From the NCBI GenBank assembly GCA_003021175.1, contig PXQV01000001.1, forward strand, positions 63,869 through 127,868: a stretch of 64,000 nucleotides of DNA, written 5' to 3'. The translations under genes and the position numbers were made by a program. The stretch comes from Halobacteriales archaeon QH_7_66_36. Lineage in GTDB: Archaea; Halobacteriota; Halobacteria; Halobacteriales; Haloarculaceae. Shown one piece after another: positions 54,621 through 60,920 of the stretch (position 1 is its first letter; each line of letters begins with the position of its first letter). The notes beneath the pieces were generated by a model. That model worked only from the letters and a program-made list of their open reading frames with translations. It ran no database searches and was not told the origin of the DNA.

Positions 54621-55709
54621 TCACCCGTCGAGGATAGCCGGCCGCTCTATCGTGCAGTCGTATCCGACCGCGCGTGCCTCGCGGGTCGGCCACTCGCCCG
54701 TCCGAGTCAGCGTCTCGACGCCCGACTCGGTGACGAGCGCCGTGTCCTCGCTCTTGGCGCCGGCTATCGTCGGGTTCCACGCGTAGGCCATCGGGAGTCG
54801 GACGCGCTCGTCGCTCTCGGGCGTCGCGACCCACTCCCGGCCGGCGAACCCCGCGGCCCCGCCCTGATGGTGGTGCTGCCACTCGCCCTCGTGGCCGACC
54901 GCGGCGTACGCGTCTCGAATCGCGTCGAACACGTCGCCGGCGTCGCCGCCTCGCTGCCCGACATCGCGGGTCGCGGCCAGCGCCGCCGCCTCCACGCGCG
55001 CTGTGGCCGCGTGCCGGTCGGTGAGCCACGAGGGCGGCTCGAACGCGACCGTTCGGGTGCAGCTCGCGTACAGGCCGCCCCGCCGTGCCGTGACAGAGAC
55101 GAGCGCGTAGTCGCCGAGTTCGGTTTCGGAGGGCGTGTAGTGGCGGTATCGGGTCGCGCGTTCGCCCCCGCCGACGAGCGTGACGGGCGTATCGATCCCG
55201 CTCGTCGCCAGTCGTCCCCGGAGGTCGGCGGCGACGGACCGTTCGGTGTCCGACGGCGTCGCGTCGCGACAGACCGCCTCGACGGCCGCCGCGGTATCGG
55301 CACCGAGCGACCGGTAACGCTCCACGTCGCGGTCGGACAGCGGCTGGCGCAGGTCGGTCGGATCGAACGTGTCGAGTCCGGGCACAGCGAAGTCCGCCGC
55401 GGCCGGCGTCGGGGTTCGCGCGGCCACCGCCTCGGCGAGTGAGGACTCGTGCCACGGGAACTGCTCGACGACCACGTCGTCCGACAGCTCTTCGGTGGCG
55501 AGCCGTTCGGCCTCGACGTTGTTCGTCACGACCCGGAGGTCGCCGTCGTAGCCGGCCGCGGCGACGCCGACATCGCCGGCGCGGTCCACGATGTTACTCC
55601 CGCCCGTTGGCCACGCGAACCCGTCCGGGGTGGCGAACCAGACGGCCGCGAGGTCACGCTCCCGTAAAAACGTGTCCAGCCGTGCCGTCCGCTCCGTCGA
55701 GACTGCCAT
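54621..55709 (-). CDS. M24-family (creatinase/prolidase fold) protein lacking both metal-binding Asp
   Basis: A 362-residue two-domain protein from ATG 55709 with the creatinase-type N domain and a pita-bread C domain. In active M24 peptidases two Asp ligands occur in a VLIDxG...GYxxDxTRT pattern. Here the segment is LVSVTARRGGLYASCTRT, so both are Ser (205 and 216). The later His and Glu regions (WQHHHQGGAAG; LVTESGVE) are present in part. It is unlikely to be a metallopeptidase; a metal-free, creatinase-like hydrolase or a binding protein fits better. Divergent from the aldehyde dehydrogenase with a shared operator-like site. A decayed copy lies at 59230-59450. Confidence 0.82.
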   Translation of the reverse strand: MAVSTERTARLDTFLRERDLAAVWFATPDGFAWPTGGSNIVDRAGDVGVAAAGYDGDLRVVTNNVEAERLATEELSDDVVVEQFPWHESSLAEAVAARTPTPAAADFAVPGLDTFDPTDLRQPLSDRDVERYRSLGADTAAAVEAVCRDATPSDTERSVAADLRGRLATSGIDTPVTLVGGGERATRYRHYTPSETELGDYALVSVTARRGGLYASCTRTVAFEPPSWLTDRHAATARVEAAALAATRDVGQRGGDAGDVFDAIRDAYAAVGHEGEWQHHHQGGAAGFAGREWVATPESDERVRLPMAYAWNPTIAGAKSEDTALVTESGVETLTRTGEWPTREARAVGYDCTIERPAILDG

Positions 55710-55716
55710 CAGTATT

Positions 55717-55735
55717 AATTCTATTGTGAGTAAAC
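55717..55735 (-). promoter_or_regulatory. TACT-N7-GA operator candidate in the M24/aldehyde dehydrogenase divergent promoter
   Basis: On the minus strand GTTTACT (55735-55729), seven bases, then GAATT (55721-55717). The gap between the two start codons is only 55 bp and very AT-rich, so this site overlaps the promoters of both genes. The same pattern is retained in the decayed copy at about 59377-59391. Confidence 0.5.
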
Positions 55736-55764
55736 TTCTTAACAGTGGCGGTCGCACGGCCCGT

Positions 55765-57195
55765 ATGGCAACCGGATCGACACGACAGGGGGCGACGAAC
55801 CTCATCGGCGGCGAGTGGGAGTCGTCGCGGAGGAGTATCGAGGTGGAAGACCTCGCCGACGGGGGTGTTTTCGCAAGGCGTCCCGCCGCGACCGCGGAGC
55901 AGGCGCGGGCGGCCGTCGCCGCGGCGGCCGGTGCGGAGCGAGCGATGCGCGAGACGACCATCGTGCAGCGGGCGAACTGGCTGACGGCGATCGCCGACGG
56001 ACTCCTCGAACGGAAGGCCGAACTCGCGGATGCTATCGTCCGCGAGGCGGGCAAGCCGGTGTCGAGCGCGCGCGGCGAGGTCGACTCGGCGGCCGAGCGG
56101 TTCCGCCGGGCCGCCGAGGAGGCCCGCGACAATCAGGGCGACTTCATCGAGGGAACGACCGAGGGTCACGAGGGGTGGCAGGCCGTCGTCAAGCCGCAGC
56201 CGGTCGGGACCGTGCTGTGTATCACGCCGTACAACTACCCGCTCGCGACCACTGCACTGCAGGTCGCGCCGGCGCTCGCCGCAGGCAACAGCGTGGTGCT
56301 GAAGCCCGCGAGCAAGACGCCCGTCAGCGCCGGTATCCTCGCGGAGATCATCGCCGAGGTCGGAGTGCCGGCCGGCGGCTTCAACTTCGTCTGTGGGCGA
56401 GCGAGCGACATCGGCGACGCCCTCGCGAGTGACGACCGCGTCGACGCCATCGCGCTCACTGGCTCGTCGCGTGCTGGCGAGCGCATCGCCGACACCTCTG
56501 GGATGGTCACGCTCCACATGGAACTGGGCGGCAACGCGCCGGCGCTCGTCTTCCCGGACGCCGACCTCGACCGCGCGGCCGACGACTGCGCGAAGGGGTC
56601 GTTCAAGTACGCCGGTCAGCGCTGCTCTGCCGTCTCGCGTGTGCTGGCCCACGACGCGATACACGACGAGCTCGTCGATCGGCTCGAAACGCGCGTCGAC
56701 GAGTGGCAGCCCGGCCCGCTGTTCGACGAGGGGACCGCCATCGGCCCGCTCATCAGCGAGTCGCAGGCCGAGTGGGTGATGGAACTCGTCGGGGACGCCG
56801 TCGACCGCGGCGCGGAACTCGTCCGGGGCGGCGACCGCGACGGCCGCACCGTCGAGCCGACGCTGCTCGCGGACGTGCCACACGACGCCCGTATCCTCCA
56901 CGAGGAGCAGTTCGGGCCGGTGGTGGTCGTCGCGCGCGTCGCCGACGAGTCGGAGGCGCTGGCGCTAGCGAACGCCGACGACATGGGGCTCGACGCGGCC
57001 GTCTTCACCGCCGACCACGACCGCGCGATGCGGCTGGCCGACGACATCGAGGCCGGCGCGGTTCGCATCAACGGTGCGCCGTCGCACGGGCTGGGCGACA
57101 TCCCCTTCGGTGGCGTCGGCGACTCGGGCATCGGTCGGGAGGGCATCGGCTACAGCATCGAGACGCTCACCACCACGAAGAGCATCGTGCTCTGA
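55765..57195 (+). CDS. NAD(P)-dependent aldehyde dehydrogenase, possibly GapN-like
   Basis: A 476-residue enzyme of the ALDH superfamily from ATG 55765. Motifs: PYNYPLATTALQVAPALAAG and NSVVLKPASKTP (cofactor), LTGSSRAGERIA, MELGGNAPALVF (general-base Glu) and YAGQRCSAVSRVL with the catalytic Cys. The GQRCxAVxR form resembles non-phosphorylating glyceraldehyde-3-phosphate dehydrogenase and lactaldehyde dehydrogenase. Lying between the aldolase genes and pyruvate kinase, oxidation of glyceraldehyde-3-phosphate or glyceraldehyde is a reasonable guess. Pyruvate kinase starts 13 bp downstream. Confidence 0.9.
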   Translation: MATGSTRQGATNLIGGEWESSRRSIEVEDLADGGVFARRPAATAEQARAAVAAAAGAERAMRETTIVQRANWLTAIADGLLERKAELADAIVREAGKPVSSARGEVDSAAERFRRAAEEARDNQGDFIEGTTEGHEGWQAVVKPQPVGTVLCITPYNYPLATTALQVAPALAAGNSVVLKPASKTPVSAGILAEIIAEVGVPAGGFNFVCGRASDIGDALASDDRVDAIALTGSSRAGERIADTSGMVTLHMELGGNAPALVFPDADLDRAADDCAKGSFKYAGQRCSAVSRVLAHDAIHDELVDRLETRVDEWQPGPLFDEGTAIGPLISESQAEWVMELVGDAVDRGAELVRGGDRDGRTVEPTLLADVPHDARILHEEQFGPVVVVARVADESEALALANADDMGLDAAVFTADHDRAMRLADDIEAGAVRINGAPSHGLGDIPFGGVGDSGIGREGIGYSIETLTTTKSIVL

Positions 57196-57208: not shown

Positions 57209-58957
57209 ATGCGCACCGCGAAAATCGTCTGTACGCTCGGCCCGGCATCGAGCGACCGGGAAACGGTTCGCTCGCTCGCCGAAAGCGGGATGTCGGTCGC
57301 ACGTCTCAACGCCAGTCACGGCTCGATCGAAGACCGGGCGGCCGCCATCGATCACGTCCGTGCAGTCGACGGAACCCTCGACACCACCGTCGCCGTCATG
57401 CACGACCTCTCCGGGCCGGAGATACGGACGGCACCGACCGACGAACCGGTGCATCTCGAAACAGGGTCCGAGGTGCGGTTCGTCGCCGCCGACCGCGTCA
57501 CACCTGAGTCGGTCGGTCTCTCCGCGTCGCTCGACGGCGTGAGCGAGGGCGACCGCGTGTTGCTCGACGACGGCCGCATCGAAACGCGAGTAGTTGGCGT
57601 GGGCGACGGCGTACGCGTGCGCGTCGAAACGGGCGGCGGCCTCGGCGGGCGCAAGGGTGTGAACGTTCCCGGCGTCGACCTCGGTCTCGACCTGCTCACG
57701 GAACGCGACGAGCGCGAACTCGACTTGGCAGTCGAGGCGGGCGTCGACTTCGTGGCCGCGAGCTTCGTCCGCGACGCCGACGACGTGTACCGAGTGGGCG
57801 AGGCAATCGAGACGCGCGGCGCGGAGATACCCGTCGTCGCCAAAATCGAGCGGGCAGACGCCCTCGAGAATCTCGACGGCATCGTCGACGCCGCCGGCGG
57901 CGTGATGATCGCCCGAGGCGACCTCGGCGTGGAGTGTCCGCTCGAAGCGGTGCCGCTCATCCAGAAGCGCATCATCCGGCGCTGTCGGGCGGCGGGAGTG
58001 CCGGTGATCACGGCGACGGAGATGCTCGACTCGATGGTTCACGAGCGGCGGCCGACGCGCGCGGAGGCGGCGGACGTGGCGAACGCGGTGATCGACGGGA
58101 CCGACGCGGTGATGCTGTCGGCCGAAACCGCCGTCGGCGACTACCCGGTTCGGGTCGTCGAGACGATGGCACGCATCGTCCGCGACATCGAGGCGAGCGG
58201 CGAGTACGCCGAACGGCGCGAGCAGAGCGTCCCGAGCGCCGAAAAGTCGAAGACGGATGCGGTCGCCCGCTCGGCCCGCTTCCTCGCCCGCGATCTGGAC
58301 GCGACGGCCATCGTCGCCGCCTCCGAATCCGGCTACACCGTCCACCGCGCCGCGAAGTACCGGCCCTCCGTTCCCGTGTTCGCCGCCACGCCGAGCGACC
58401 GCGTGCGCCGCCAACTCGCGTTGTCCGGCGGCGTCGTGCCGAAACACGTCTCCGTGGACGGTGACGACGCGAGCGCCGTCGTCAACCGCGCCGTGCAGGC
58501 GGCGCTCGAAGCCGGGGTCGCCGACGGCGGCGACACCGTCATCGCATTAGCCGGGATGATGACGGAACTCGAAGGCGTGAACACGACGAACATGCTGAAG
58601 GTCCACGTCGCCGCCGAGATACTGGCGTCCGGTCAGCCGGTTGTCGAGGGGTACGTGACAGGCACGCTACACCGCACGGAGGATGGCGACCTCTCTGACG
58701 CCCCGGAGCGGGCGATACTCGTCGTTCCGGGTAGGTTCGACGAGGAACTGACCGGCGAGTTCGACCGCGTGGCCGGCGTGGTCGACGCACGTGGCGGCAT
58801 GACGAGCTACGTCGCCACGGTCGCCCGCGAACTCGGCGTGCCGATGATCGGCGACGTGACGCTTCCGCGCGAGGCGACGGACGGCACCGCCGTCACCCTC
58901 GACGGCCAGCGAGGCGTGGTGTACGAGGGCGTCCTCGGGGAGAGAGAAACGGGCTGA
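57209..58957 (+). CDS. pyk: Pyruvate kinase with C-terminal PEP-utiliser-like domain
   Basis: Converts PEP and ADP to pyruvate and ATP. It has 582 residues from ATG 57209, 13 bp after the aldehyde dehydrogenase. Catalytic-core motifs: TLGPASSDRE, ARLNASHGS (Arg32, Asn34, Ser36), DLSGPEIRT, VAKIERADA with Lys212, and TATEMLDSM. The B domain (about 70-155) and C domain are complete. An extra domain (about 500-575, ILVVPGRFDEELTGEF, DARGGMTSYVATVARELG) resembles the PEP-utiliser swivelling domain of PPDK, but the phospho-His of TSH is Tyr534 here, so phosphotransfer is unlikely and a regulatory role fits. Confidence 0.95.
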   Translation: MRTAKIVCTLGPASSDRETVRSLAESGMSVARLNASHGSIEDRAAAIDHVRAVDGTLDTTVAVMHDLSGPEIRTAPTDEPVHLETGSEVRFVAADRVTPESVGLSASLDGVSEGDRVLLDDGRIETRVVGVGDGVRVRVETGGGLGGRKGVNVPGVDLGLDLLTERDERELDLAVEAGVDFVAASFVRDADDVYRVGEAIETRGAEIPVVAKIERADALENLDGIVDAAGGVMIARGDLGVECPLEAVPLIQKRIIRRCRAAGVPVITATEMLDSMVHERRPTRAEAADVANAVIDGTDAVMLSAETAVGDYPVRVVETMARIVRDIEASGEYAERREQSVPSAEKSKTDAVARSARFLARDLDATAIVAASESGYTVHRAAKYRPSVPVFAATPSDRVRRQLALSGGVVPKHVSVDGDDASAVVNRAVQAALEAGVADGGDTVIALAGMMTELEGVNTTNMLKVHVAAEILASGQPVVEGYVTGTLHRTEDGDLSDAPERAILVVPGRFDEELTGEFDRVAGVVDARGGMTSYVATVARELGVPMIGDVTLPREATDGTAVTLDGQRGVVYEGVLGERETG

Positions 58958-59229
58958 TTCACGGCGGCTTTCGTACTACGAGGGACGAATACCCGTCGGT
59001 ACAGTCCGAACGCTGATACCGCGAGGACCGATGGCTCGGGAGCGTGCCCTTTTGATTCGCGTCCGACCCGCGCCACCCCGACCACACCGGAGCGAACCGC
59101 TGTTGGCCGTGTACGGTCGCCAACGTCGTGCTCGTCGGAATCGGTGCTGCGGCCGTGAATACCGTCGTCTCGCCGCTCGTCTGGCTCGGTGAATATCTGG
59201 TTCCGAGAACGCCACGGTTCGCCCCGCTG
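58958..59229. other. Intergenic stretch without a recognisable gene
   Basis: Downstream of pyruvate kinase. Several frames are open on both strands but none has a start plus protein-like composition. It may be further decayed parts of the duplicated copy that follows; I could not align it with the M24 or aldehyde dehydrogenase genes by eye. Confidence 0.4.
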
Positions 59230-59450
59230 CTCGTCCCCAGCCGTCCCCGGAGGTCAGCGGCGACGGAACGCTCGGAGTCACCCGAAGTCACGTCTCGACA
59301 GACGGTCACGAGACCACGCTCTCCTAAAACGCGTCCAGCCGCGTCGTTCGCTCCGTCGAGACCACTATTGGTATCCATTCGACTGTGAGTAATCGTCTTA
59401 ACGGCGGCGGTGCGAAGCGAGCGATGCCCGAGACGATGGACGGCGAGCCG
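59230..59450 (-). pseudogene. Decayed duplicate of the M24 / aldehyde dehydrogenase intergenic region
   Basis: Three blocks match the region 55200-55955 in the same order. 59230-59304 matches 55200-55272 and on the minus strand still reads ERSVAADLRGRL, as in the M24 gene. 59305-59400 matches 55650-55745: it holds the M24 start region, reading VVSTERTTRLDAF then a stop, and the promoter with GTGAGTAA and CTTAAC. 59400-59437 matches 55920-55955 of the aldehyde dehydrogenase. Segments between the blocks are deleted. So an old tandem copy of the M24-ALDH unit has collapsed to a relic of about 220 bp. No product is expected. Confidence 0.85.
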
Positions 59451-59530
59451 TGGTGGACGCGGGCACACTTGACCGACAGTCGAGTCGAGCTGACGCGGCT
59501 CGTGGTTACGAGCGACGCCCGCGCGGAGTC

Positions 59531-59731
59531 CTACAGCAGCTGCTCCTTCCGTTCCTCGCGCTCTTCGTCCGCCTCGGCCTGCCGCTTCGCCGCCGCGCGC
59601 CGCCGTTTGTATCGTCGCACTGCGGGGACGAACTTGTTCTTCAGGTCGAAGCCGAAGGAGACGATGCCGTACACCCAGAAGAAGAACAGCAGCGTCATGA
59701 TCCCGACGTAGGTGAGCGGGTCGAGCGCCAT
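59531..59731 (-). CDS. 66-residue single-helix protein downstream of the ABC operon
   Basis: A small membrane protein from ATG 59731, 1 bp after the ATPase stop. One N-terminal helix (LTYVGIMTLLFFFWVYGIVS) is followed by a charged cytoplasmic tail with a coiled look (KRRRAAAKRQAEADEEREER). It is the last gene of the sugar-transporter operon. Single-helix proteins of this kind may help assemble or stabilise the transporter; I do not recognise a named family. Confidence 0.75.
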   Translation of the reverse strand: MALDPLTYVGIMTLLFFFWVYGIVSFGFDLKNKFVPAVRRYKRRRAAAKRQAEADEEREERKEQLL

Positions 59732-59732
59732 C

Positions 59733-60920
59733 TCAGTCGTCACCCTCCGCCTCGGCGGTGCCGGAGCCGGCACCGGTCGACAGATTCGTTATGCCGTGGA
59801 CGATGGCGTCGCCCGAGTCGCCGTCGAACAGGTGGATCTTCGAGCGGTCGAACACCACGTCCATCTCCTCGTCGGCCTCGATGTCCGAGTCCGGCGAGAC
59901 GCTCATCAGCAGTTGGTTGTCGGCGTTCTGGTCTTCGAGGTCCACGTCGGCGTCGGGGTTGGTCAGCAGGTAGACGAATATCTCGTCGCCCATCGGCTCC
60001 AGGACGTCCGAGGTGACGGCGACCGGGTCCGACGGCTCGTCTGCACTCTCCGCGTCGGCGACCGGATACACGTCCTCGGGCCGGACGCCGAGCGTCACCG
60101 ACTGGTCCGGCTGGACGCCGGCGTCCATCGGGTCGAACTCGATGCCGAGGTGGCCGTTCACCGAGCGGTAGCCGTCGTTGGTGACCTCGCCGCGCGCGAA
60201 GTTCATCGACGGCGAGCCGATGAAGCCGGCGACGAACAGATTGGACGGTTCGTTGTAACAGACGAGCGGCGGGTCGATCTGCTGGAGGTGGCCGGCGTTC
60301 AACACTGCGATGCGGTCGGCCATCGTCATCGCCTCCGCCTGATTGTGGGTGACGTAGATGATGGTGGTGTCAAGCTCCTTGTGGAGCCGCTGGAGCTCCG
60401 TCCGCATCGTCACCCGGAGCTTGGCGTCGAGATTCGCCAGCGGCTCGTCCATCAGGAACACCTCGGGTTCGCGCACGATGGCGCGGGCGATGGCGACCCG
60501 CTGGCGCTGCCCGCCGGACATCGCGTCGGGCATCCGGTCTAACATTCCTTCCATCTGGACGACGCTCGCGGCGCGCTCGACCCGCTCGTCGATCTCCGCC
60601 TTCTCGTACTCCCGGAGGCGGAGACCAAAGGAGATGTTGTCGTACACGTCCATGTGCGGGAACAGCGCGATGTTCTGGAACACCATCGAGATGCCTCGGT
60701 CCTTCGGCGGGAGCCGGGTCACCTCGCGGTCGCCAATGTTGACCGTCCCGCTCGTCGGGTGTGTCAGTCCCGCGACCGTCTCCATTGTCGTCGACTTCCC
60801 ACACCCCGAGGGACCGACCAAGACGACGAACTCGCCGTCCCGGATCTCGAGGTTCATGTTGTCGACAGCCGTTACGTCGTCGTACCGTTTCACCACGTCG
60901 TCGAGTTGTACTCGTGCCAT
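59733..60920 (-). CDS. Sugar ABC transporter ATPase (MalK/UgpC-like, CUT1)
   Basis: Energises sugar uptake at the cytoplasmic face. It has 395 residues. Walker A GPSGCGKST, Q-loop VFQNIALFP, signature MSGGQRQRV, Walker B VFLMDEPLANLDA and switch His in IYVTHNQAEAM. A C-terminal TOBE/OB regulatory domain (about 240-380) is typical of the CUT1 family; its acidic insert is halophilic. Located 4 bp after the permease gene and 1 bp before the 66-residue gene. Confidence 0.95.
   Translation of the reverse strand: MARVQLDDVVKRYDDVTAVDNMNLEIRDGEFVVLVGPSGCGKSTTMETVAGLTHPTSGTVNIGDREVTRLPPKDRGISMVFQNIALFPHMDVYDNISFGLRLREYEKAEIDERVERAASVVQMEGMLDRMPDAMSGGQRQRVAIARAIVREPEVFLMDEPLANLDAKLRVTMRTELQRLHKELDTTIIYVTHNQAEAMTMADRIAVLNAGHLQQIDPPLVCYNEPSNLFVAGFIGSPSMNFARGEVTNDGYRSVNGHLGIEFDPMDAGVQPDQSVTLGVRPEDVYPVADAESADEPSDPVAVTSDVLEPMGDEIFVYLLTNPDADVDLEDQNADNQLLMSVSPDSDIEADEEMDVVFDRSKIHLFDGDSGDAIVHGITNLSTGAGSGTAEAEGDD

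Follow-up and report, generated by a model that had tools for sequence, protein, structure and literature searches.

The segment at 59056-59464 of the Halobacteriales archaeon QH_7_66_36 window (the whole 64,000-nucleotide stretch of DNA analysed) represents, with a probability of roughly 0.8, a non-functional remnant of a haloarchaeal sugar-degradation cluster that was once present here in a second, tandem copy. It lies in the 573-bp gap between the pyruvate kinase gene (pyk, PYK) and the gene for a small membrane protein, TM62, and is made up of successive fragments, HTG'(+), M24'(-), promoter, ALDH'(+) and PYK'(+), each oriented as in the intact cluster and together occupying the site where the outgroup Halorarius litoreus has pyk directly beside TM62. 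Duplication of the M24-ALDH-PYK unit is well supported, and we infer that duplication of the whole cluster is likely. The relic is an ordinary pseudogene from a duplicated and decayed gene cluster, somewhat richer than the first-pass annotation of this DNA saw, and shows no sign of present function. It changes no general view, and its value is that of a small readable record of the duplication of a haloarchaeal sugar cluster, followed by trimming via short direct repeats.

The intact cluster and the fragments between pyk and TM62

The intact source copy includes an M24 peptidase-family gene (54621-55709, minus strand; Pfam Peptidase_M24, 1.4e-11), from which relic blocks 1 and 2 derive, and an aldehyde dehydrogenase (ALDH) gene (55765-57195, plus strand; Pfam Aldedh, 2.2e-145), with a divergent promoter region between them (55710-55764) in which a pattern scan finds conserved TTATTC-N6-GAGTAAA and CTTnTTAA elements, both recurring in Halorarius litoreus, QS_4_69_225 and QS_8_69_73. 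These are followed by intact pyk (57209-58957, plus strand; Pfam PK, PK_C and PEP-utilizers) and, beyond the relic, by TM62 (59531-59719, minus strand) and the ABC sugar transporter genes. TM62 encodes a 62-residue membrane protein that matched no Pfam family and is conserved next to the ABC sugar transporter ATPase gene; by tblastn synteny it adjoins pyk in Halorarius litoreus and M24 in QS_9_67_17. The cluster continues past the window end with a TrmB regulator, an aldo/keto reductase (AKR), HTG and a ROK sugar kinase, the intact cluster copy of HTG lying outside the window at about 66721-67530 in window numbering.

When 58601-60000 was queried against the whole window by blastn with permissive settings, the three best non-self matches were on the same strand as the M24-ALDH source and collinear with it. 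Block 1 (59229-59311, minus strand), an internal part of M24, matches 55200-55282 with 80.7% identity (E 2.0e-17). Block 2 (59299-59411) matches 55639-55752 with 78.9% identity (E 1.2e-22) and comprises the M24 5' end (59299-59369, minus strand; 55639-55709, 81% identity) and a promoter part (59370-59411; 55710-55752, 77% identity). Block 3, ALDH' (59402-59436, plus strand), matches 55922-55957 with 91.7% identity (E 1.3e-5), and the ALDH start is deleted. The next unrelated match has an E value of 0.009, and the pairwise alignments, which the first-pass annotation had proposed as a check, give an identity beyond that of random G+C-rich segments. Its three ordered blocks are borne out, and their coordinates are accurate to a few bases apart from the start of the second source block, which is 55639 and not 55650; the collinear blocks confirm its relic of a once-duplicated M24-ALDH unit.

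A fourth block, PYK' (59434-59464, plus strand), matches the 3' end of pyk (58900-58930) at 25 of 31 nucleotides without gaps. In an ungapped diagonal test this is the sole match of at least 24/31 in the 64-kb window on both strands; gapped alignment alone does not single out the pyk end, other places scoring up to 20.5 against 20. The block extends the order to M24'-ALDH'-PYK', and it is followed by TM62, just as pyk is in the outgroup. As the 3' end of pyk it implies that the collapsed copy spans M24'-ALDH'-PYK', so that an earlier suggestion that pyk was perhaps included is now supported. A genome search found no further copy elsewhere in QH_7_66_36. Matches of 59419-59451 to two other genomes (G019 and G050) fall in a coding gene that is unrelated, and we attribute them to chance.

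On the other side of M24', a plus-strand remnant of the 5' part of a second HTG copy, HTG' (59056-59240), is identified by tblastn to HTG family members (E about 1e-14 to 4e-16) and by a protein tree. It is 51% identical to residues 8-90 of the HTG protein of its own cluster (E 2.7e-9). In the tree it groups with the HTG genes of TrmB-AKR sugar clusters (fork 91/79), whose linkage to AKR and TrmB was checked. It sits there on a long branch, with little support for its exact position (inner fork 92/17), and its DNA is only about 70-75% identical to the present HTG, which makes its origin in the same duplication as M24'-ALDH'-PYK' no more than probable. The HTG family is conserved in haloarchaea and carries the motifs HTGxxRCWPC, from which it is named, and RGYLVPxTPRFAP (L105:2789-3598, homologues L125-L154). 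In sugar clusters its genes are often divergently paired with AKR-TrmB, and no Pfam or NCBIfam model matches the protein.

The flanks of these fragments are less distinct. The spacer from pyk to HTG' (58958-59055) is at most weakly like the sequence that precedes the cluster HTG (10 of 300 shuffles score equally well) and has no clear diagonal match to any source. The tail up to the stop of TM62 (59465-59530) has no unique diagonal match; it aligns in gapped alignment only, where 3 of 500 shuffles score equally well, and may possibly derive from the second copy, as its pyk stop and the spacer from there to TM62.

Decay and proposed stepwise deletion

M24' is dead. Its start codon has changed from ATG to ATA, a 1-nt deletion in an A5 run (own copy 55666-55670, relic 59326-59329) shifts the frame, and an early TAG at 59324-59326 on the minus strand follows after 14 codons. 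Most of its length is also gone, and ALDH' has no start. The peptides ERSVAADLRGRL and VVSTERTTRLDAF, read by the first-pass annotation in one minus frame ahead of a stop, are both present, the second being followed by this TAG, but the loss of one A from the A5 run puts them in separate minus frames. The G+C content of the relic is 63% against 71-73% in the source genes ALDH and M24, which fits decay, and the open reading frames at 58959-59468 (minus strand) and 59128-59711 (plus strand) are probably not genes.

The block offsets give deletions of 369 bp within M24, of 180 bp covering the M24/ALDH intergenic region and the ALDH start, and of about 2945 bp covering the rest of ALDH and most of pyk. 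A further deletion took the M24 3' end and fused M24' to HTG'. At this last junction the two parts share the repeat GCTCGTC (59229-59235, 7/7), while the junction inside M24' has an imperfect 13-nt repeat and the junction before ALDH' a shared GGCGGT. Internal deletion had been proposed before, but with two events, where at least three and the HTG'-M24' fusion are found. Since one deletion joins M24' to what is left of another cluster gene, a tandem unit of just M24-ALDH-pyk does not suffice, and one of M24-ALDH only is ruled out by block 4, from the pyk 3' end, and by HTG'.

In the course of events that we propose, M24-ALDH-PYK, and probably the whole cluster to HTG-ROK, would have been duplicated in tandem in an ancestor that QH_7_66_36 has in common with the QS_9_67_17 lineage, or in one near to that lineage. 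If the whole cluster was copied, the HTG of copy 1 would come to lie upstream of the M24 of copy 2. The middle of the duplication would then have been removed stepwise by deletions, mostly between short direct repeats, leaving M24-ALDH-PYK of copy 1, TM62-ABC transporter-TrmB-AKR-HTG-ROK of copy 2, and the relic at the seam. The order HTG'-M24'-ALDH'-PYK' before TM62 is that expected from a whole-cluster tandem duplication with its middle deleted, whereas duplication of M24-ALDH-PYK alone leaves HTG' unexplained. An intact intermediate occurs in no relative searched. A more specific version can be offered only tentatively, in which the whole cluster of ~13 genes was duplicated, the present cluster is a mosaic of M24-ALDH-PYK from copy 1 and the transporter and regulators from copy 2, and the sister lineage lost ALDH-PYK. 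If so, the relic would mark a recombination seam and the divergent resolution of a single duplication.

The relic resembles prokaryotic tandem-duplication remnants and pseudogenes collapsed between short direct repeats in its collinear fragments beside an intact source and its junction repeats, and also in its lost start codon, frameshift, stop and lowered G+C. Unlike these, it keeps a piece of HTG, a gene normally at the far end of the cluster, which suggests that the duplicated unit was larger than three genes. A search of the literature on tandem-duplication pseudogenes in haloarchaea found nothing relevant.

Relatives, age and alternative origins

The cluster of Halorarius litoreus (NZ_CP101454, L184), KDGK-M24-ALDH-PYK-TM62-ABC-perm-perm-SBP-TrmB-AKR-HTG-ROK, is identical to that of QH_7_66_36 in genes, order and orientation. 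It differs in having no relic and in its pyk and TM62 matches, which are about 46 bp apart instead of 573, and the longer gap is thus the derived state. QS_9_67_17 (PXSB01000033.1, L104), of the same genus as QH_7_66_36, has gnaD, KDGK, M24 and TM62, with an M24 protein that is 90% identical. It differs in that M24 adjoins TM62, with KDGK on the other side, ALDH and PYK absent between, and no relic; elsewhere in this metagenome-assembled genome (MAG), which is 67% complete, there is no strong ALDH or PYK match. An intact second copy in related genomes, which the first-pass annotation had thought worth seeking, was not found, nor was a less decayed one, at the relic's place among 59 relatives; this absence is weak evidence, because few of these are genomes of the genus. 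The cluster varies within the genus, as four members (G002-G005) are without close M24 and ALDH homologues and three of them (G002, G004 and G005) have a more distant pyk (66-70%).

Over 120 aligned positions, relic M24' has an identity of 81% with the own copy, 84% with that of QS_9_67_17 and at most 67% with those of other genera, and it falls inside the genus clade. Likelihood tests retain all three inner orders of the own, QS_9_67_17 and relic sequences (AU p 0.69, 0.50 and 0.12). Fourfold-site divergence in M24 is 12% between the own copy and QS_9_67_17; relic and own copy show a difference of about 19%. If the relic decayed neutrally, the duplication would therefore be about as old as, or older than, the split between the own and QS_9_67_17 lineages.

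The main rival to tandem duplication is import, in which an HTG-M24-ALDH-PYK fragment of a related haloarchaeon entered by recombination next to the existing cluster and then decayed, this lineage itself having undergone no duplication. Block 1 of M24' indeed shares 88% identity with QS_9_67_17, against 81% with the own copy, and the required order with HTG upstream of M24 exists in nature, as in one family member (G029, L183) HTG precedes M24 by about 3 kb with their relative orientation unchanged. However, the relic lies within the genus clade with no other genus closer, and its place and order are as tandem duplication predicts. Furthermore, it matches nothing in the plasmid collection and is flanked by no noteworthy direct or inverted repeats, which rules out a mobile-element origin and also argues against import, an explanation that we regard as improbable. 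Chance similarity of G+C-rich coding DNA does produce matches at E values of 0.009 and above, but the E values of the three collinear blocks lie below this background by many orders of magnitude and, together with the unique block 4, leave it a vanishingly small probability.

Tandem duplication might be refined by reciprocal loss, with the duplication preceding the QS_9_67_17 split, QS_9_67_17 keeping the second M24 and losing ALDH-PYK, and QH_7_66_36 keeping the first; the relic and the QS_9_67_17 M24 would then be orthologues. This accords with the QS_9_67_17 M24 directly adjoining TM62 without ALDH or PYK, with the relic divergence exceeding that between the own copy and QS_9_67_17 at fourfold sites, and with the block 1 sites, 7 of which are common to the relic and QS_9_67_17 against 1 to the relic and the own copy. 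Yet 6 of these 7 sites fall within 16 bp, block 2 has no such preference (4 against 5), and the topology tests favour no order. The QS_9_67_17 M24 has also retained its KDGK neighbour on the far side, like copy 1, and that MAG is only 67% complete, so reciprocal loss is a rather doubtful addition to the tandem duplication.

The M24/ALDH promoter element

The divergent M24/ALDH promoter element TTTATTC-N6-GAGTAAACTTnTTAA is strongly conserved upstream of M24 in four genomes, QH_7_66_36, Halorarius litoreus, QS_4_69_225 and QS_8_69_73 (loci L184, L046 and L039). The dyad within it, TTATTC-N6-GAGTAA, is kept in four intact M24/ALDH promoters, and the relic holds mainly its right half. Since a TrmB gene is present in the cluster, this dyad may be a candidate TrmB-type operator; a partly palindromic TrmB motif of 19 bp has been reported (PMC10817205).

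The idea that the operator-like site and promoter core survived better than the coding parts is not supported, as identity in the relic promoter is 77% (33/43) and that in the coding blocks 81% (57/70 and 67/83). This lower value is one reason why it is very unlikely that the relic promoter or operator is under selection and still binds TrmB or drives a transcript. The GAGTAA and CTTAA elements do remain, and the window holds three near-matches to the dyad, the relic's among them, where 0.31 are expected, but the left half of the relic dyad is degraded (CCATTC against TAATTC) and there is no intact gene directly downstream on either side. In QS_9_67_17 (L104:9567-10867), the intact part of the M24 promoter extends only as far as GTGAG.
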